The position numbers and the translations under genes are program-made. This document shows positions 4,843 through 17,922 of a DNA stretch of 23,053 nucleotides, piece by piece (the first letter of the stretch is position 1; each line of letters begins with the position of its first letter). The notes beneath the pieces were generated by a model, which was given only the letters and a program-made list of their open reading frames with translations, was not told the DNA's origin and searched no databases. Location of the stretch: positions 1 through 23,053 of the IMG/VR virus record IMGVR_UViG_3300025652_000583, one strand, 5' to 3'. The DNA comes from a virus.

Positions 4843-6480
4843 CTAGAAAGGTGTGTCGTAACCTCCTACCAATGCAGGGGCAACATCAAAAGGGTTGGCT
4901 TGGAATAGCTTCCCAGTTTCGTGGTTGTAATTAAGAGGAATAGTCACGCCTGTTGACTGACCCGTGTACCTGTCTTTTAAGATACGGAATGTAGTGGTCT
5001 GTCTTTCATTAAGGTCTTCAGCTTGCTGATTACGCTCAAGTCCAAACATAAAGTGACACCAGAAACCAATGGCACGGGAGCCTTTGAAGTGGCGTATCGT
5101 TACTCGACCACCCTCTTCGTGAGGCTTACCCTCTGGGGTAGCAAGGTGACTGACCATTGTGATAATTACGTTCAGACGTTTAGCTAACATAGCAATAGCA
5201 GCAGTGATGCGTTCAAGCTCGACTCGCTCGTCAGTACCCTGACCAGTAGCCAGTGCAGTGAGGTGGTCTATGTAGAATATTTCTATTCCATCTGCGTGAT
5301 GCATGTACTCAATGTTGGCCTTAACAGTGTCCCACTCGCAGACCCCGAAGCTATCGTATAAACGAATGCGGTCATGGGCTGTGATTTCATCAAGAGCAAT
5401 CTTACGTTCTTCAGCAGTCCAAGCACCATCAGGTACATGAAACATCTTGCCAGCGCGTTTACCAGCTAGTAGTACAGCAGTCTCTTTAGGCTTCTGCTCA
5501 AGAAAGAACACGCCTACAGTCTGCTCAAGTTCATACATGTCATGCACGATTTGCTGAGTAAGAAAGTCTGTCTTACCTACACCAGTACCAGCACCGACTG
5601 CATATAACTCACCCTTCCTGCGTCCATAGGTAGCCTTGTTAAGTTTCTCAAGATACCAAGGTAAGCCCCACTCAACTGGTGCGTCTAGTTCCTCACGTAT
5701 GTCAGACAAAGATACTATGCCATCAGGACGATAGACCTTTGCATTCCACACAGCTTCTAATAACTGACGTGCGCCACCATTAAGCAATGCTTCATTTGCA
5801 TCTTTGAACCCAACGATGTGACCAATAGAACACTTACCAGCTTGGAACAATGGAGCGCACTCAGACGCAGCTTTTTCACCAGCAGAGTCTGCGTCAAACA
5901 TCAGTATAATTTCTTGGAATTTATTCAGGTAAGGTAGGTTAGCAGCTATACATTTAGCCGCCCCACCAGCCCCGTTGGGCAAAGAAATTACAGGGTATTT
6001 GTTGTCTTGTACTTGGCTTAATGCCATAGCATCGAGCGCGCCTTCTGTGATTACTAACTTCTTACCTTGGTTCCAAATCTTACTGCCGAACATAGGCATC
6101 TTGCTGAAGTCGCCCAGGATTGGGAACTCTTTATCCTGAGTCCGTAGCTGTTGAGCTACTAACTTACCGTCCAAGTCATGCAGTGGGCAGATGTGAACAG
6201 GTTGTCCACGGTAGCTACCGACTTTGTAGCCGAAGTGTTTAGCAGTAGCCTCCGTGATGCCACGGTTTCTTAATGCTCTTACTTCACCATCAATCATATC
6301 AATAGCCATGCGTGGTTTCCTTGTTGGTGCTGGAACATCAGAGTCAGGCCATTCCATATGGTCACAGGCTGCTCCGAAACAGTAAGCCCTGCCCGAAGCG
6401 TATCGGGCTAGGTTGTTAGACGAGCCACACGCAGGGCATGGTTCGCGCCCTGTCATTGGGCTATCGTCTATTTCACGCAT
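4843..6480 (-). CDS. Primase-helicase (T7 gp4-like)
   Basis: Makes RNA primers and unwinds DNA at the fork, 545 residues. An N-terminal zinc ribbon has C15, C18, C34 and C39 (spacing CX2C, CX4C). The TOPRIM primase site shows E146 in ITEGALDAMA and D196-A-D198 in LMFDADSAG. The RecA-like helicase has Walker A GAGTGVGKT (296-304), Walker B acidic D405 in FYIDHLTAL, and a candidate arginine finger R483. The protein ends in phenylalanine, as T7 gp4 does, though the last residues are less acidic. GGAG lies 8 bases before the ATG. It sits directly after the small HTH gene and before the polymerase, as in T7. Confidence 0.96.
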   Translation of the reverse strand: MREIDDSPMTGREPCPACGSSNNLARYASGRAYCFGAACDHMEWPDSDVPAPTRKPRMAIDMIDGEVRALRNRGITEATAKHFGYKVGSYRGQPVHICPLHDLDGKLVAQQLRTQDKEFPILGDFSKMPMFGSKIWNQGKKLVITEGALDAMALSQVQDNKYPVISLPNGAGGAAKCIAANLPYLNKFQEIILMFDADSAGEKAASECAPLFQAGKCSIGHIVGFKDANEALLNGGARQLLEAVWNAKVYRPDGIVSLSDIREELDAPVEWGLPWYLEKLNKATYGRRKGELYAVGAGTGVGKTDFLTQQIVHDMYELEQTVGVFFLEQKPKETAVLLAGKRAGKMFHVPDGAWTAEERKIALDEITAHDRIRLYDSFGVCEWDTVKANIEYMHHADGIEIFYIDHLTALATGQGTDERVELERITAAIAMLAKRLNVIITMVSHLATPEGKPHEEGGRVTIRHFKGSRAIGFWCHFMFGLERNQQAEDLNERQTTTFRILKDRYTGQSTGVTIPLNYNHETGKLFQANPFDVAPALVGGYDTPF

Positions 6481-6482
6481 GG

Positions 6483-6677
6483 TTATTTCTCCAAGCTGTA
6501 CTCTGCATAAGGGGCTTTAACACCAGTCTTCATGGTGGTCGTGATTGATATGCCTCGCTTGTTGAGTGTGTAAACAACAGCAGCTAGACGGGTGATGCCA
6601 TACAAACCTATCGCTTCAATAGAAGTAATCTTACGGTTGTTGGTCAGGTGGGTTAACACAGTTTGAATTTGTGTCAT
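6483..6677 (-). CDS. Small helix-turn-helix protein (HTH_39-like)
   Basis: A 64-residue protein with one winged-helix-like unit: VLTHLTNNRKITSIEAI, GLYGITRLAAVVYTLNKRG, then a short wing ISITTTMKTGV. This matches small phage HTH proteins (Pfam HTH_39 as I remember it), which are common just before replication genes. Function unknown; DNA binding is likely. It is the first gene after the 6751-6769 phage promoter and its hairpin leader, has a good GAGAGG ribosome site, and ends 2 bases before the primase gene. Confidence 0.78.
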   Translation of the reverse strand: MTQIQTVLTHLTNNRKITSIEAIGLYGITRLAAVVYTLNKRGISITTTMKTGVKAPYAEYSLEK

Positions 6678-6708
6678 AGTAAATCCTCTCAGTTATTGAG
6701 TTCATAAG

Positions 6709-6742
6709 AATGAAAAAGACCACGGGGATGTGGCCTTTTGGT
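6709..6742 (-). terminator. Promoter-proximal terminator-like hairpin, copy 1
   Basis: On the minus strand the RNA would form a 10-bp stem AAAAGGCCAC / GTGGTCTTTT around loop ATCCCC, with one G-U pair, ending in a U run (6713-6717). It starts 13 bases after the expected +1 of the phage promoter at 6751. It has the shape of an intrinsic terminator but lies in the 5' leader of the HTH/primase transcript. It is a near copy of the hairpin at 8374-8400. Confidence 0.75.
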
Positions 6743-6750
6743 TGGTCGTG

Positions 6751-6769
6751 CCATAGTGCTACACTTGCT
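6751..6769 (-). promoter_or_regulatory. Phage RNA polymerase promoter 1
   Basis: Minus-strand AGCAAGTGTAGCACTATGG, differing from the other copies only at the expected -1 position (G for A). The CACTAT core matches T7-type promoters. It overlaps the stop codon of the amidase gene and would drive the HTH protein, primase-helicase, polymerase and nucleotide genes. Confidence 0.85.
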
Positions 6770-7190
6770 CAGATAGCCACTGACGCACATCAAACGATGG
6801 GCATTCTTTAGTGACACCTTTCAGGTCGCAATGACCTAGCACTTCTGCTTCAGGAAATTTATGTTGTAGTCCTTTTACTAACTGGTTCAACGACACAAAC
6901 TGTTCAGGTGTGAAATTATTTTCAGCGACCTTTACATCATCCTCAGTCACTCCACCAACGAGTGAAATTGAAATGCTGTTGTGGTTGAAACCTCTAGCGT
7001 GTGCGCCAGCAACTTCTTCAGGTCTGCCAGTTTCCAGTACACCATCCCTGCGGATAATGTAGTGGTAACCCACCTCAAAAAATCCTCTATGCCTATGCCA
7101 TGCGTCAATTTCGTCACGGCCTATGTCCATTGAGGGTTTGGTTGCGGAGCAGTGGACTACTATTAGCTCTGTTGAGCTTCGATTAGCCAT
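6759..7190 (-). CDS. N-acetylmuramoyl-L-alanine amidase (T7 lysozyme, gp3.5-like)
   Basis: A zinc amidase that cuts peptidoglycan. In T7 the same protein also binds and inhibits phage RNA polymerase, which is known for T7 and only inferred here. Zinc ligands H13 (VVHCSAT), H120 (LGHCDLKG) and C130 are present, as are catalytic Y42 and K128, so the enzyme should be active. Length 143 is close to T7 (151). There is no signal peptide, so it needs the holin to reach the cell wall. It overlaps the endonuclease stop by 28 bases; GGAG lies about 14 bases before the ATG, so translation may depend on coupling. Confidence 0.94.
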   Translation of the reverse strand: MANRSSTELIVVHCSATKPSMDIGRDEIDAWHRHRGFFEVGYHYIIRRDGVLETGRPEEVAGAHARGFNHNSISISLVGGVTEDDVKVAENNFTPEQFVSLNQLVKGLQHKFPEAEVLGHCDLKGVTKECPSFDVRQWLSEQV

Positions 7191-7570
7191 GCTTTTGGTA
7201 TAGTCTCCTTTGAATACAGAAAGTCATGCTTCTCACACCACATTGCGTAAGTCGTGTTAGAATTTTTGGAGATTTTCTGTTTGGGATTTGAGAACACAAA
7301 CCTAATATCTAAATCAGGATGTTGCTCTTTAATTAAAATATGCTTTTGCCTGTCAGCCACCATGAACCTACCCTTACCTTCAATGAAGATATTTCCTATT
7401 CGGAAATCGGGTGTATAGGTGGAGACACGGCTGGGCTTGGTGTACTTAATCTTGTCCTCTTCATAGGTGTACGCAATGCCGTGCGCTTTTAGCTCCTTGG
7501 CAATCCTTACCTCTAGTCCTGAACGAAAACCATACTTCAAACCAACGTCCTGTTTAGAACGGAATGTCAT
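7163..7570 (-). CDS. Endonuclease I, Holliday-junction resolvase (T7 gp3-like)
   Basis: Cuts branched DNA and helps degrade host DNA, 135 residues. It aligns by eye with T7 gp3: FRSGLE (E20), YTPDF (D55), IFIEGKG (E64, K66), then HILIKEQHPDLDIRFVFSNP and CEKHDF. All four active-site positions known from T7 (E20, D55, E65, K67) have a counterpart. I set the start at ATG 7570, with AGGAG 9 bases before it, instead of the TTG two codons earlier. The start lies inside the ssDNA-binding protein gene (17-base overlap). Confidence 0.94.
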   Translation of the reverse strand: MTFRSKQDVGLKYGFRSGLEVRIAKELKAHGIAYTYEEDKIKYTKPSRVSTYTPDFRIGNIFIEGKGRFMVADRQKHILIKEQHPDLDIRFVFSNPKQKISKNSNTTYAMWCEKHDFLYSKETIPKAWLIEAQQS

Positions 7571-8186
7571 CGGCAAATTCTCCTACTTCCTCTGACTCGT
7601 CTTGCATGTTTGCAACCGCAGCATCAGGGTCAAATGAATAACCTTCCTCTTCAGAGAAAATAGTAGTCGCCTCGTTAGCACCTTCGATTGCTTCAAGAAT
7701 CTGAACGGACTTCATGCGTAGAGAAAGTCCAGCACCAGCGAGTGAGGTGTAGTAAGGAATGACTTGGTAACCTACTCGTACCAATGAGCCGTTCCACAAA
7801 GGAATCTCTTTAGTGATAGGCTGTCGTTTAGCGTCCACCACAATTGGCTTCTGACTAAACACGTCACCACTCTTGGTGGTAACTTTCGCTTTCAACTTAA
7901 ACTTTAGAGACACGTCACCTGTTTCTTGGTTGACTTCGTAAGGGTCAGTCGTGCGAATCTTGTCCCGTGATTTGCCTGTCTCTTCAACCGCAGCATCAAT
8001 TGCTTTTTCAAACAACACGTCTAACTCTTTCATCAAGTCAGTAGCGTCATTGTTATCAATGATTAACTTGCCACCGAAAACCCCATCAATATCAAATTTT
8101 GTGTCAGCTTTAAAACATTTAAGCCATTCAGTTCGGCCTTTGGGTGATAAGAATACGGGTGGTTGCTTGTTAGTTTTTTGGGTCAT
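7554..8186 (-). CDS. ssDNA-binding protein (T7 gp2.5-like)
   Basis: Coats single-stranded DNA and coordinates replication. The 210-residue protein resembles T7 gp2.5 (232 residues) in position and in its acidic tail, DESEEVGEFADDIPF, which ends in phenylalanine as in T7, where the tail contacts polymerase and helicase. The body contains VFLSPKGRTEWLKCF near the N-terminus and a conserved PLWNGSLVRVGYQVIPYY segment (about 129-147) likely in the OB fold. The ribosome site AGGAAA is adequate. It is followed by endonuclease I in the T7 order 2.5-3-3.5-4-5. Confidence 0.9.
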   Translation of the reverse strand: MTQKTNKQPPVFLSPKGRTEWLKCFKADTKFDIDGVFGGKLIIDNNDATDLMKELDVLFEKAIDAAVEETGKSRDKIRTTDPYEVNQETGDVSLKFKLKAKVTTKSGDVFSQKPIVVDAKRQPITKEIPLWNGSLVRVGYQVIPYYTSLAGAGLSLRMKSVQILEAIEGANEATTIFSEEEGYSFDPDAAVANMQDESEEVGEFADDIPF

Positions 8187-8224
8187 ATTATTTCCTATAT
8201 GTCAGGTCGCGCATCTGCGCTTGG

Positions 8225-8356
8225 TTAAGTGTGGAGAGCGATAAAATCATTTAGAATTACGCCTTGGTTCACAAGCTTTACTATCAAATCCAAAGGCAAA
8301 GGTTCGCCATTGGCTATAAGAGCCGCAGCAAATGCTTGCTCAATCGTCATGTCCAT
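8225..8356 (-). CDS. Small uncalled protein (43 aa) before ssDNA-binding protein
   Basis: A 43-residue reading frame, MDMTIEQAFAAALIANGEPL followed by a helical segment DLIVKLVNQGVILNDF, with GGAG 9 bases before its ATG. It is the first gene after the phage promoter at 8413 and its leader hairpin, which supports translation. The frame ends 38 bases before the ssDNA-binding protein start. No family recognised; T7 has several small genes at the equivalent place. Confidence 0.65.
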   Translation of the reverse strand: MDMTIEQAFAAALIANGEPLPLDLIVKLVNQGVILNDFIALHT

Positions 8357-8373
8357 ATAAAGTCTCCAGATAT

Positions 8374-8400
8374 AAGAAAACCCACGGGATGTGGGCTTTC
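8374..8400 (-). terminator. Promoter-proximal terminator-like hairpin, copy 2
   Basis: Minus-strand RNA forms a 10-bp stem GAAAGCCCAC / GTGGGTTTTC around ATCCC, with one G-U pair, then TT. It starts at about +14 from the promoter at 8413. It shares stem architecture, loop sequence and distance with the copy at 6709-6742. It also lies 3' of the RNA polymerase gene, so it could end that transcript. Confidence 0.75.
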
Positions 8401-8412
8401 GGTTTCATCGTG

Positions 8413-8431
8413 CTATAGTGCTACACTTGCT
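8413..8431 (-). promoter_or_regulatory. Phage RNA polymerase promoter 2
   Basis: Minus-strand AGCAAGTGTAGCACTATAG, identical to promoters 3 and 4 over 19 bases. It lies between the RNA polymerase gene and the 43-aa gene/ssDNA-binding protein operon, where T7 has middle (class II) promoters. Confidence 0.88.
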
Positions 8432-8447
8432 CTGATACACCTAAGAC

Positions 8448-8465
8448 AGTCTTAAATTCAAGACC
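8448..8465. repeat. 18-bp repeat with near-palindrome, copy A
   Basis: AGTCTTAAATTCAAGACC, identical to 11277-11294. GTCTT and AAGAC are inverted arms around an AT-rich centre. It lies directly 3' of the RNA polymerase stop codon. Possible operator or recombination-derived repeat. Confidence 0.7.
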
Positions 8466-8466
8466 A

Positions 8467-11064
8467 TTAGGAGAAAGAATAAATGCTTAGTAGTGTGTCA
8501 AGATAATCCAACTCACCCTTTGCTGGTGGTAGGTCAAGAGACTCCCTATCTTCCTGCTTTAGCTGCGCCTGGAATTGTAGATACAATGTGTGAATGATGT
8601 CACTGCTATCATACATTTCAACCATGCTGTGCTTAATCACATTACTAAATTCTTGTAGGTCAGCAGCGTGGCAGCCAAAAGAATCATGTATAAGAGAAAA
8701 GCTAGTTTCATCACCAGTTTTTTCAGCCATTCTAGCCACCGATAGCTGAAGGTGGGCTGCATCCAGTGAGTGAACAAAATTGGGTGAGCAACCTTGCGCT
8801 GATTTGCGGCTACAGATTTGGTCAGTCTCTTCGGTCAGAGTAAGATAGATTAATGCCCCTCCCATGTGGCTCCTTACGCGGTGCTTAGTGACGTTGTAAT
8901 ATGACTGTAACACTGGGAACCCTAGAGGCGTAGTCCACCGTACAGGCAGGGTCTGGAGCGTACCATCAGGCATCGTGTACTTAGTCTTAGCAACCAGTTT
9001 AGCACTCGCAGTTAGCCAATCCATAAGACGTGCTGGACGTTTGACCGAGTCAACTACTGCGTCCCAAAGAATGCGCGAGATATAAGAACTAGCGCGGAAC
9101 CCATCATCATAGGAGAAAGGAAAGTCCATGCCTGTCTTCTGACATGACCGCTTCAATGGACGCATCACATCTTCAATGATTTGTTCACGGAACCCGTATT
9201 GTTTTGACCCATAGCTATACGTCATTACGCTTCTCTTCGCCTCCTTCCTACCAAAGCCAAACTTGAGCCATTCCAAAGCTAACTCTGTATAATTTGGCAC
9301 TCGTTTGCCCATGTTATTTAAGACAGGCTCCCCCCAATGCTCATGGGGTTGCTGTGAGTCTGCCACTAGAGCCTTAACTACTTTGTCTGCTACGATTTGA
9401 TACACGTCTTGAGGCGTATCACTAGGTAGTATGTTGACGTTGGCAGCAGTGCTAGAACAGCGCATAGCCATGCTTAGATGTTGCAAACCTGAACAACTTC
9501 CATCAAGTGAGGTGACTATTTTTGATACGTGGTCAACCCCATTATCTAGGTAACCCACATAGTCCATGCAACATGCTACAAACTGCAAAGGTTTGTCTGC
9601 TTCGCACCATCCACGGTTTTCCCACGGGTTAGCTGCAACATCACGTATGAATGCTTCGTTGTCAGCACACCATTGGACACGTTCATCCATTGTTTTCTTA
9701 CTGACCTTATCAAAGTCACCAAGGTTAGCTAAGTGAATTGCCAGAAAACGTGCGCCTGACTCACCTAGTCTCTTGCCCTTGCTAAACTGCATTACAGATT
9801 TGACTTCGTCTGGACCCATTCCATTGAGTACACCAGACACTGAATATATACGACCCCTAAAGTCAAGGTTGTATCCTAGATACCAAGCATCAAAGTCTTT
9901 GTACTCGTCAGCCAAGTCCAGCAAGGACGTGAACGCTATGCGCTTTGCTTTTTGCTCACGGTTAGACACACGGACTCTGTTACAGTCTGAAATATAAGCA
10001 GCCTTTTCCTCTATCGTAGCCACGTCATAGTCAATCATCGGTGGTGGGTTTTCATTGTACTTATTAGGTATAGATGGACACCACTCTGCACCTGACTCCC
10101 ATAACTGTGTAACCATATCAAGCATGGGCTGGTTGATAGACCATGCAGTCTTCTGCATAGAGTTAACAGCATGTAAGACAACATCAATGTCCGTGTTGCG
10201 TAGTTCCTCAAAGTAGTTTCGATTACTTGTCTTAACAAACTTTACAGGTCTGCAAGAGTAAGTGTAATAGACACCATTTTCTAGGTTGCTATAGTCCCAA
10301 TCTCTAGGTGGCACAACTAGGGGTTTATACTGAGGTGTGGTTAGACCTAATTTATCTATCCTTTTATCTACCCATTCCAGTGTGTCTTGGGTTGCTATCA
10401 ATCTTTTGATTGTGTTGTTCTTACCTCTGGACTCAGTAACAATTTGGACTAAACCAACAGTTTCCATAAGTATTGAGATTAATTTTTCTCCTACTTTTAA
10501 TGTCTTCTTTTTAGGCCAAGCTTCCCAAGATTCTATAGTACCTTTGGCTGCTTCATCAGTCATAGCTTTAGTGATTGTTTTCATTCTGTGATAACCAGTA
10601 CGCTTATTCGCAGAGTCAATCAGTCTCTTCGTTAGTGCTTTGTTTTGCAGACGCAGACCTTCAAGCATGAATTCATCTTGCACGGTCATAGCAGCAGTCA
10701 TTGCTGAGTTGGTCAAAGTCATAGACTTATTACTTATGCTATTGATTATGCTTTTCATAAACAGGTAAGAGATTACCTCTGGGTCACCACCTTTTAAAAG
10801 TTTACGTGTCCCTGCTGCGTGACCTCCTTTAACATCATCTTCTTTTAGATAATCACGGATGCCGTTTGCGAATCTAGCTAGTCCATGAACCATCAACGTG
10901 TGTCCATAGTCACTACTACTTTCATTACCCTGCTCTTTCTGTTTAGCATGGTTTTCCAAAGCTTTCTTAATACCACTTTGGCGTGAACTTAGTTCTAACT
11001 TTTCCTGTACTGGGAACATCTTTTCTAATTGGTCATAGGAGTTATATATCATTGAGTAAGTCAT
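8467..11064 (-). CDS. T7-like single-subunit DNA-dependent RNA polymerase
   Basis: Transcribes middle and late genes from the phage promoters. Numbered from my start (865 residues), catalytic aspartate D521 lies in SLDGSCSGLQHLS, K610 and Y618 lie in KRSVMTYSYGSKQYGF, and D794 lies in LIHDSFG. These match T7 D537, K631, Y639 and D812. The C-terminus YSFS replaces the T7 FAFA foot. I place the start at ATG 11064 because GGAGAG lies just before it; the upstream in-frame ATG at 11076 has no ribosome site and itself overlaps that GGAG. T7 RNAP has 883 residues. The gene has its own promoter at 11148, giving positive feedback. Confidence 0.96.
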   Translation of the reverse strand: MTYSMIYNSYDQLEKMFPVQEKLELSSRQSGIKKALENHAKQKEQGNESSSDYGHTLMVHGLARFANGIRDYLKEDDVKGGHAAGTRKLLKGGDPEVISYLFMKSIINSISNKSMTLTNSAMTAAMTVQDEFMLEGLRLQNKALTKRLIDSANKRTGYHRMKTITKAMTDEAAKGTIESWEAWPKKKTLKVGEKLISILMETVGLVQIVTESRGKNNTIKRLIATQDTLEWVDKRIDKLGLTTPQYKPLVVPPRDWDYSNLENGVYYTYSCRPVKFVKTSNRNYFEELRNTDIDVVLHAVNSMQKTAWSINQPMLDMVTQLWESGAEWCPSIPNKYNENPPPMIDYDVATIEEKAAYISDCNRVRVSNREQKAKRIAFTSLLDLADEYKDFDAWYLGYNLDFRGRIYSVSGVLNGMGPDEVKSVMQFSKGKRLGESGARFLAIHLANLGDFDKVSKKTMDERVQWCADNEAFIRDVAANPWENRGWCEADKPLQFVACCMDYVGYLDNGVDHVSKIVTSLDGSCSGLQHLSMAMRCSSTAANVNILPSDTPQDVYQIVADKVVKALVADSQQPHEHWGEPVLNNMGKRVPNYTELALEWLKFGFGRKEAKRSVMTYSYGSKQYGFREQIIEDVMRPLKRSCQKTGMDFPFSYDDGFRASSYISRILWDAVVDSVKRPARLMDWLTASAKLVAKTKYTMPDGTLQTLPVRWTTPLGFPVLQSYYNVTKHRVRSHMGGALIYLTLTEETDQICSRKSAQGCSPNFVHSLDAAHLQLSVARMAEKTGDETSFSLIHDSFGCHAADLQEFSNVIKHSMVEMYDSSDIIHTLYLQFQAQLKQEDRESLDLPPAKGELDYLDTLLSIYSFS

Positions 11065-11089
11065 TTGACTCTCCATTGTATTTCAGTCT

Positions 11090-11105
11090 GTCTCAATTTT
11101 GAGAC
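11090..11105. repeat. Inverted repeat in RNA polymerase leader
   Basis: GTCTCAATTTTGAGAC, with 7-base arms GTCTCAA / TTGAGAC around TT. It lies about 26-41 bases before the RNA polymerase start and downstream of promoter 3. It resembles the 18-bp repeats and could be an operator or an mRNA hairpin. Confidence 0.6.
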
Positions 11106-11147
11106 TCTATAAGCGCAGCTATCCCTTGGAGTTCATATCCCGTTGGG

Positions 11148-11166
11148 CTATAGTGCTACACTTGCT
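11148..11166 (-). promoter_or_regulatory. Phage RNA polymerase promoter 3 (before its own gene)
   Basis: Minus-strand AGCAAGTGTAGCACTATAG, +1 expected at 11148, followed by CCCAAC. It lies 84 bases before the polymerase start and would amplify polymerase expression once some enzyme exists. Confidence 0.87.
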
Positions 11167-11276
11167 CTTTAAGTCGTTACTAATATACTAATAGACACGA
11201 TTAGTCCTCACCTAAAGGGTGTCCGTTTGGTTTCCGTTTGTCCTAATAATTGCAGCCCATGCCTCTCATTTAATTT

Positions 11277-11294
11277 AGTCTTAAATTCAAGACC
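11277..11294. repeat. 18-bp repeat with near-palindrome, copy B
   Basis: Exact copy of 8448-8465. The pair flanks the RNA polymerase gene and its promoter. It lies between the integrase terminator and promoter 3. Confidence 0.7.
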
Positions 11295-11299
11295 TTAGA

Positions 11300-11337
11300 T
11301 TAAAATATAAGCCGCACTCTGTTGATAGCCGTGCGGC
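11300..11337 (-). terminator. Intrinsic terminator after integrase/attP
   Basis: Minus-strand stem GCCGCAC / GTGCGGC (7 bp, arms 11331-11337 and 11311-11317) followed by TTATATTTTA. It lies downstream of the integrase and attP and upstream of promoter 3, so it could separate lysogeny transcription from the RNA polymerase gene. Confidence 0.65.
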
Positions 11338-16119: not shown

Positions 16120-16157
16120 AGTGGTATTTCCTTTGGTTTTGGTTAGTTTGTTTGTGT

Positions 16158-16184
16158 TAGTAGCTTTGGGGAATAAAGCCACTA
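16158..16184 (-). other. Strong stem-loop in the DUF7227 leader
   Basis: Minus-strand RNA TAGTGGCTTT / AAAGCTACTA forms a continuous 10-bp stem with one G-U pair around ATTCCCC. It lies between two early genes, with no U run, so it is more likely an RNase III-type processing or stability site than a terminator. T7 early mRNA is cut by RNase III at such intergenic hairpins. Confidence 0.6.
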
Positions 16185-16195
16185 AACCAAAAAAA

Positions 16196-17192: not shown

Positions 17193-17227
17193 AATATTGT
17201 ACTCTCGTTGGTGTTGGTGTGGAGTCG

Positions 17228-17255
17228 ATTATAATCACTATTTATTATAAGTAAA
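17228..17255 (-). promoter_or_regulatory. Candidate host sigma70 early promoter
   Basis: Minus strand: TTTACT (17250-17255), a 16-base gap, and a perfect TATAAT (17228-17233). A second TATAAT lies within the gap (17244-17249). Transcription would begin near 17221, about 29 bases before the first early gene, so the direction and place fit. AT-richness makes a chance match possible. Confidence 0.5.
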
Positions 17256-17317
17256 GCATTAAATTAGAGACTATCTAAAATACTTTAATAGGTGGTTATT
17301 GCTAGGTGTTGGTTTAT

Positions 17318-17460
17318 GCCTATATATAGGTAAACAAATTGATAGGTGGTGAATGGTATTAGATAGCCTATAGATAGTCTAAAAAGAAAAACGGATAGAC
17401 CTCTCATTTACGCCTTTAATAAATGAGACTATCAAGTGCAATTCATGGCTATCTATAGGC
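17318..17460. repeat. Three copies of GCCTATAKATAG
   Basis: GCCTATATATAG at 17318-17329, GCCTATAGATAG at 17366-17377, and the same word inverted at 17449-17460. The first copy sits in CCTATATATAGG, flanked by GTTTA and TAAAC. The second and third copies can pair as 12-bp arms. They surround the start of early transcription, as operators would. Confidence 0.6.
17402..17428. repeat. 9-bp inverted repeat
   Basis: TCTCATTTA (17402-17410) and TAAATGAGA (17420-17428) around a 9-base loop. It is nested between the paired GCCTATAGATAG arms. It also contains an AGTCTC-AT-rich element on the minus strand. Confidence 0.6.
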
Positions 17461-17537
17461 ATTCAAAAGAGGTGCAATGCCTCTCCACAACCGAGCAATA
17501 ACAATGCCTGAATAGCGGCTAAGACAATGCCTAAGAC

Positions 17538-17602
17538 ACCCCACCCCACCCCCTAGACGTTTTAGGGTGGCTCTGGGCCGCACCCTCCAGGGGGGCCGGG
17601 TC
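17538..17602 (-). other. G-rich strand block
   Basis: The minus strand carries GGGGGTGGGGTGGGG (17538-17552) and nearby CC/GG-rich segments that can fold, for example CCACCCTA with TAGGGGGTGG. Its composition is unlike the AT-rich surroundings. It may be part of the terminal repeat, a packaging signal or a pause site. Confidence 0.5.
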
Positions 17603-17673
17603 CTGAGTCCGTATAGATATAGCCCCTCAGAGTTTTTCTTAAAATTATTCTCTGGGAAATCCAAAGCCCCTAT

Positions 17674-17718
17674 CCAATAGAATGACAATAGAACTCCAAT
17701 AGAACTCCAATAGAATGG
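17674..17718 (+). repeat. Four tandem CCAATAGAA units
   Basis: Units CCAATAGAAT, CAATAGAACT, CCAATAGAACT and CCAATAGAATGG start at 17674, 17686, 17696 and 17707, with a period of 10 to 12 bases. T7 has short direct repeats beside its terminal repeat, so a similar role is possible. Slippage-type duplication is the plainest origin. Confidence 0.75.
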
Positions 17719-17756
17719 TACTGGACTTAATACTACCTCAAGCTGTAGAGGCTAAG

Positions 17757-17814
17757 AAAAAAAAGCATTCCAAGACACTGAGAGAGTTATCTCTTAGACA
17801 TCTATAGAATGCTT
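17757..17814 (-). terminator. Strong intrinsic terminator after the late operon
   Basis: On the minus strand, outer arms AAGCATTC / GAATGCTT (17807-17814 and 17763-17770) enclose a second 8-bp stem (CTAAGAGA / TCTCTCAG) with a 4-base loop, and a run of eight T follows (17757-17764). It lies about 90 bases after promoter 4 and would stop both late transcripts and that promoter's RNA. Confidence 0.8.
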
Positions 17815-17903
17815 ATAGTATTGTTAGGTAGGTTGATAATAGAGGTATATATCACGTACTGATTTTGAGGCGTATCTAAGAGTGGTCTTTATATATATCA
17901 ACC

Positions 17904-17922
17904 CTATAGTGCTACACTTGCT
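17904..17922 (-). promoter_or_regulatory. Phage RNA polymerase promoter 4 (phi-OR-like position)
   Basis: Minus-strand AGCAAGTGTAGCACTATAG directly abuts the terminase stop, and transcription starts GGGTTG, like T7 class III promoters (CACTATAGGG). No gene lies between it and the terminator 90 bases on. T7 has a promoter near its right end (phi-OR) linked to replication and packaging, and this is the natural comparison. Confidence 0.85.

Follow-up and report, generated by a model that had tools for sequence, protein, structure and literature searches.

A phage promoter placed directly before a terminator-like hairpin at two gene-block boundaries of a temperate-type T7-like phage

Why should hairpins that look like intrinsic terminators lie in the 5′ leaders of phage transcripts, directly behind the promoters that start them? 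This question is raised by a 23,053-nt stretch of DNA (IMG/VR record IMGVR_UViG_3300025652_000583), here called the window, from a T7-like virus of bacteria of the temperate type. A first-pass annotation had described two promoter-hairpin modules that share a leader, with a 10-bp stem starting at +13/+14, and had offered three options for the hairpins: a stop to host transcription coming from upstream, attenuation of phage transcription or protection of mRNA 5′ ends. The genes, promoters and hairpins concerned are the following.

17904-17918, minus strand: phage promoter after the terminase gene, without a hairpin
11148-11162, minus strand: phage promoter before the RNA polymerase gene, with no hairpin at +13 and a different one at about +44
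8467-11076, minus strand: phage single-subunit RNA polymerase, with site 1 at the end of its gene (phrog_414, E 8.7e-212)
8413-8431, minus strand: site 1 phage promoter, GAGCAAGTGTAGCACTATAG region, predicted +1 at 8413, conserved in relatives
8376-8400, minus strand: site 1 leader hairpin, +14 to +38, 10 pairs, GAAAGCCCAC-ATCCC-GTGGGTTTTC, internal G-U
8225-8356, minus strand: 43-aa ORF behind site 1, in the position of T7 gene 1.1, with a Shine-Dalgarno sequence GGAGA at 8363-8367
6759-7190, minus strand: amidase of the T7 gp3.5 type, with site 2 at the end of its gene (phrog_822, E 4.8e-61)
6751-6769, minus strand: site 2 phage promoter, GAGCAAGTGTAGCACTATGG region, predicted +1 at 6751, including the amidase stop codon
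6714-6739, minus strand: site 2 leader hairpin, +13 to +38, 10 pairs, AAAAGGCCAC-ATCCCC-GTGGTCTTTT, internal G-U
6483-6677, minus strand: small protein of the winged-helix type (HTH_39), translated from the site 2 leader (Pfam PF14090, E 7.7e-17)

The 21-base promoter form AAGTGTAGCACTAT[A/G]GCACGA occurs on the minus strand without mismatch at 6746-6766 and 8408-8428 and with two mismatches at 11143-11163, compared to 0.01 copies expected by chance from shuffled sequence. Its 15-base core, AGTGTAGCACTAT[A/G]G, has four copies in the window, which lie before the polymerase gene (11148), after it (8413), after the amidase gene (6751) and after the terminase gene (17904). Four conserved copies, together with the gene of a cognate single-subunit polymerase, are what is expected of T7-type phage promoters; the start sites are predicted from the sequence, +1 being taken as the G of TAT[A/G]G. 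A strong hairpin comes after only two of the copies, at +14 in site 1 and at +13 in site 2, and these two promoters switch on the DNA-replication genes. The two hairpins are the strongest terminator-like matches in a scan of 20 kb, and an equally good hairpin appeared in the 60-nt leader in only 5 (site 1) and 3 (site 2) of 4000 dinucleotide shuffles, or about 0.1%. Over the entire minus strand, four places reach that hairpin score, two of them being site 1 and site 2. The two modules are thus confirmed as described, with exact promoter copies, and some of their details have to be corrected. The G-U pair, thought to close the loop, is internal and sits at the junction of the G/C core and the A/U arm, and the U run reported after the stem is present but lies partly within the stem. 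No covariance model of Rfam matched up to E = 1 over positions 6400-11300.

The site 1 hairpin begins about 67 nt past the stop codon of the RNA polymerase gene, and the site 2 hairpin only 20 nt past that of the amidase gene, which itself lies within promoter 2. The hairpins had been placed in 5′ leaders rather than at gene ends; they are indeed in leaders, but they are at gene ends as well. The puzzle of terminators outside gene ends therefore dissolves, the promoter being tucked in front of a hairpin that also follows a gene.

A polymerase search retrieved relatives at 64-79% identity, one of them a contig binned in a metagenome-assembled genome called Bermanella, and a primase profile search retrieved about 30 contigs of like kind at 65% identity or above; viral contigs scanned again with a four-sequence polymerase profile yielded no additional relatives. 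In this clade the promoter is followed by a hairpin in every contig where the junction is readable. The first-pass annotation had named a lack of conservation in relatives as refuting its proposal; hairpins with altered stems are in fact kept at both places in about 15 distinct relatives, which fall into three promoter-specificity groups. The groups carry (i) AAGTGTAGCACTATAG, as in the window, (ii) TAATTAARTTGCACTATAG and (iii) AGGTTGCACTATCACGG. In groups i and ii, both sites have a hairpin that begins at about +13 to +18; in group iii it usually begins later, mostly at +31 to +35 at site 1 and at about +17 to +23 at site 2. Group iii leaders have a small extra hairpin near the 5′ end, ahead of the main one, in which a compensated change (ACGGT..ACCGT to ACAGT..ACTGT) is found. 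Two long group iii contigs have four promoters each and the module at the two middle ones only; their promoter before the structural-region ORF has no notable hairpin. Behind site 1, 42-aa ORFs resembling the 43-aa ORF of the window are found in three relatives (G001, G002, and L176). Outside the clade, no such module was found at the polymerase junction of HTVC200P, CRP-361, and HTVC120P, nor did a simple hairpin scan find a comparable one before the primase gene where the primase is more distantly related (at most 36% identity). An exact 14-base promoter scan of viral contigs returned mostly chance matches, which served as an informal control, and the hairpins in these contigs were weaker in nearly all cases.

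The two modules of a genome are more alike than modules of different genomes. Compared over their first 14 transcribed bases, the hairpin promoters of one genome agree at 80% and those of different genomes at 48%, and their agreement with the promoter before the polymerase gene is 39%. None of 5000 permutations, which ignore relatedness, gave a within-genome agreement as high. This indicates that the two modules evolve together, either by copying or under a shared requirement.

What is kept in the stems is pairing rather than sequence. Among 18 distinct stems from both sites, 22 cells show double-sided changes, compared to a mean of 7.0 in shuffles, and none of 500 shuffles reached that number; the covariation score is 0.407 and falls to 0.130 or less once the register is slid. 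Since stem sequences are related, the independent events are fewer, about a dozen by our own count after grouping by site, position and clade. Mismatches in 28 modules comprise 19 G·U and no A·C, in a search that treated both alike. This asymmetry, along with the double-sided changes, implies that a sense-strand structure has been selected, most simply RNA. The loop ATCCC(C), previously taken as a shared motif, is replaced in relatives by CCAGA, ACTCC, AATTCC, AACT, TTCG, and others, and this variation rules out a conserved loop motif.

Termination was assessed with a d'Aubenton-Carafa-type score, which was calibrated on E. coli and may not suit the host of this phage. Site 1 has the make-up of an intrinsic (Rho-independent) terminator, a G/C-rich hairpin followed immediately by a U run, and scores above zero in eight of nine distinct relatives; T7 TE scores 3.2 on the same scale. 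The exception, L005 (-29.2), has a second promoter directly behind the hairpin in place of the U run. The window itself is borderline at both sites (0.4 at site 1 and 2.0 at site 2). At site 2 the window, L137, L005 (+15.9), and L187 have positive scores, and L159 and L232 fall just short of zero. Strongly negative scores are found in L004, L161, L172, and L239, which keep the hairpin without a proper U run, indicating that termination is not the conserved function at this site. Each genome for which both sites are available has at least one positive score, as in L004 (+27.2 at site 1 and -45.1 at site 2) and L172 (+10.1 and -41.0). Judged by these scores, termination can be a shared function at site 1, and the conservation of site 2 must call for a structural role. 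Of the three options first proposed, the stopping of upstream host transcription is thus the best supported one for site 1, and phage LUZ100 has a counterpart with a mapped RNA end at the position of site 2.

The site 2 leader contains two further elements between the hairpin and the gene of the HTH_39 protein.

6701-6714, minus strand: second conserved leader element TTCATTCTTATGAA, a 5-pair inverted repeat within the best conserved leader stretch
6688-6700, minus strand: third leader element CTC-AATAACT-GAG, directly before the Shine-Dalgarno sequence, CGC...GCG in L137

Past the hairpin, TCATTCTTATGAACTCAA hardly varies in any of the groups and is more conserved than the hairpin itself, and TCATT-T-ATGAAC is invariant or nearly so in 16 leaders (alignment A4). 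A scan with the 19-mer TTCATTCTTATGAACTCAA found 16 contigs, and those newly inspected carry it at the matching position. This 19-mer, the most conserved non-coding stretch of the leader, has a 5-base inverted repeat with a 4-base spacer and precedes the HTH_39 gene (6688-6714); it may form a second structured RNA element or serve as an operator for the product of that gene. A leader peptide (ATG AAC TCA ...) was considered for the site 2 leader and rejected. Its frame with respect to the next gene differs between relatives, early stops occur in several of them and no clear Shine-Dalgarno sequence lies ahead of it, and the change of CUC/GAG to CGC/GCG favours pairing instead.

The modules resemble several known arrangements, namely the promoter/RNase III-site pairs of T7, the leader stem-loops of T7 phi3.8 and phi10, and the phi4-T6 pair of LUZ100. 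LUZ100, likewise a temperate-type T7-like phage, has promoter phi4 (8595-8644) and terminator T6 (8624-8723) annotated at the junction between the amidase gene and the next gene, so that a promoter is followed by a hairpin at the amidase gene end, and here the RNA 3′ end has been mapped. In the LUZ100 paper (PMC10134795), terminator regions extend from -60 to +40 relative to the mapped 3′ ends. By our own conversion, which is not given in that paper, the T6 3′ end falls near 8684, just past a hairpin that we read at 8651-8678; the mapped end does not say how it arose, being compatible with either polymerase or with processing. Unlike the window, LUZ100 has another promoter and hairpin sequence, a longer loop and a hairpin nearer to the start site, and its polymerase-gene junction has two promoters (phi2 and phi3) and no annotated terminator. 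The Roseobacter phage CRP-361, which has a similar gene order, shows a strong terminator at the amidase junction (score 38.0) and no obvious promoter copy there. Behind the polymerase genes of Bordetella phage BB8 (L130 8525-8590) and LUZ100 (L132 6723-6782), the phage promoter is enclosed by an inverted repeat, TTCCGGCTGGG...CCCAGCCGGAA in the former and GAGCCAG...CTGGCTC in the latter, so such a stem could be formed by read-through RNA only.

In T7 itself, a promoter followed by a hairpin occupies the same two gene junctions (phi1.1A/phi1.1B and phi3.8), but the phi3.8 hairpin starts at +1 and neither place has a U-run terminator. The stem behind phi1.1A is of the RNase III-site type. Six of the ten RNase III sites of T7 share an intergenic region with a promoter (PMC9135205). 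T7 TE ends early host transcription and, like site 1, consists of a short G/C hairpin and a U run directly before a Shine-Dalgarno sequence, whereas it lies after gene 1.3 rather than gene 1 and has no phage promoter ahead of it. The phi10 leader also has a stem-loop at the start of a phage-polymerase transcript, but its stem begins at the first transcribed base, as opposed to +13/+14 in the window, and phi10 is a late promoter, while the structural-region promoter of the relatives of the window has no hairpin. The arrangement is therefore a variant of known T7-type layouts, and a description of it as such was not found in the open-licence literature.

From the positions, conservation, sense-strand pairing and terminator-like scores we infer that the host enzyme terminates and the phage enzyme reads through, with stabilisation, and the reading we consider probable is that of operon-boundary hairpins, which end upstream transcription, at site 1 mainly that of the early host phase, and also serve as leader to the transcript that follows. 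A phage promoter directly before the hairpin that closes the upstream gene block would make one element both 3′ end signal and 5′ leader. Site 1 would be mainly an early terminator, the counterpart of T7 TE: host RNA polymerase, having copied the phage polymerase gene, would stop at the hairpin and U run and leave a stable 3′ end, and phage polymerase starting at +1 would already be elongating at the hairpin and would mostly read through into the replication genes. After the amidase gene, the site 2 hairpin would be conserved as a 3′-end and leader structure, termination being optional. The conserved order of promoter and hairpin and the relatives that keep the site 2 hairpin without a U run suggest such a leader role. 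Counting against operon-boundary hairpins, a pure terminator would be better placed in front of a promoter than behind it.

That order, present in every close relative, also speaks for a purely stabilising leader, in which the hairpin guards phage transcripts from 5′-end-dependent decay or keeps the ribosome site open and termination is incidental. The hairpins lacking a U run at site 2 (the four far-negative relatives) and at site 1 (L005) fit this proposal, as do the 5′-terminal mini hairpins of group iii with their compensated change and the T7 phi3.8 and phi10 transcripts, which begin GGGAGACCACA[G/A]CGGTTTCCC and so carry a 5′-terminal stem-loop. It leaves unexplained, however, the good U runs at site 1 and the absence of a hairpin at the structural-gene promoters, and we regard it as possible though rather unlikely. 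The same restriction to middle promoters is what points to a timed attenuator marking the middle (class II) promoters, whereby phage polymerase would read through early and amidase binding, as in T7, would raise termination past the hairpin, switching middle transcription off while the hairpin-free late promoters stay on. The T7 amidase moves the polymerase away from class II and towards class III promoters (PMC6068830). We hold this attenuation to be improbable, its support here being the middle-only distribution of hairpins, but the amidase effect makes it worth testing.

Processing by an RNase, in which the hairpin is either cleaved or marks a cleavage site and polycistronic phage RNA is thereby trimmed at the promoter, in the manner of the T7 RNase III sites, agrees with the match of both positions to phi1.1 and phi3.8. 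T7 RNase III sites have long, imperfect stems, whereas no long irregular stem is conserved here, all relatives having only 5-10 pairs of freely varying sequence; 10 pairs with a loop of 4-8 nt are short for RNase III, and there is little likelihood that this is the main function. A role as a DNA-level inverted repeat, acting within a replication origin or as an operator bound by a MarR-type or HTH_39 protein, could be proposed because the inverted repeats lie beside promoters, the phage encodes a MarR-like protein as well as the HTH_39 protein, and the primary origin of T7 is at the position matching site 1. The stems nevertheless vary among relatives and even within one genome, from one site to the other, and G·U without A·C fits a single-stranded sense copy rather than an operator in duplex DNA, making this role very improbable.

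Operon-boundary hairpins would give these poorly studied temperate T7-like phages a compact, conserved regulatory part, a promoter fused to a terminator-like hairpin at two operon boundaries, with a stem sequence free to vary as long as pairing is retained. If the split between termination and read-through is true, this part stops one polymerase and passes another, which would explain how early host transcription is separated from middle phage transcription.

Several smaller observations concern other parts of the window and its relatives. The polymerase-gene leader has its own small hairpin, GTCTCA-AAAT-TGAGAC, at about +38 to +44 (around 11100-11120, minus strand), whose stem is changed and whose loop is GAAT or AAAT in relatives (L004, L161, L194, and L174). 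Loop-loop or trans pairing was considered because this leader has two copies of GGGAU, the complement of the AUCCC loop, and was dropped since the match is lost in L161, L194, and L004. In one relative, the contig binned as Bermanella (L142 2317-5084), the polymerase frame is split into overlapping ORFs of 618 and 345 aa and may be frameshifted or misassembled. The 49.7-kb IMG/VR contig 3300027522_000006 (G005) carries a group ii and a group iii module pair together (L219 and L220), which marks it as either an assembly chimera or two adjacent phages. Behind the terminase gene of the window, a gene-poor stretch at 17200-17900 (minus strand) holds a phage promoter as well as repeats, both of CTATTGGAGTT units and of CTATAGATAG-like words, and is probably the genome-end region. 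A further hairpin of the window at 16155-16195 (minus strand), AGTGGCTTT-ATTCCCC-AAAGCTACT, lies far from the promoter copies and has a loop identical to that of site 2 in L004.
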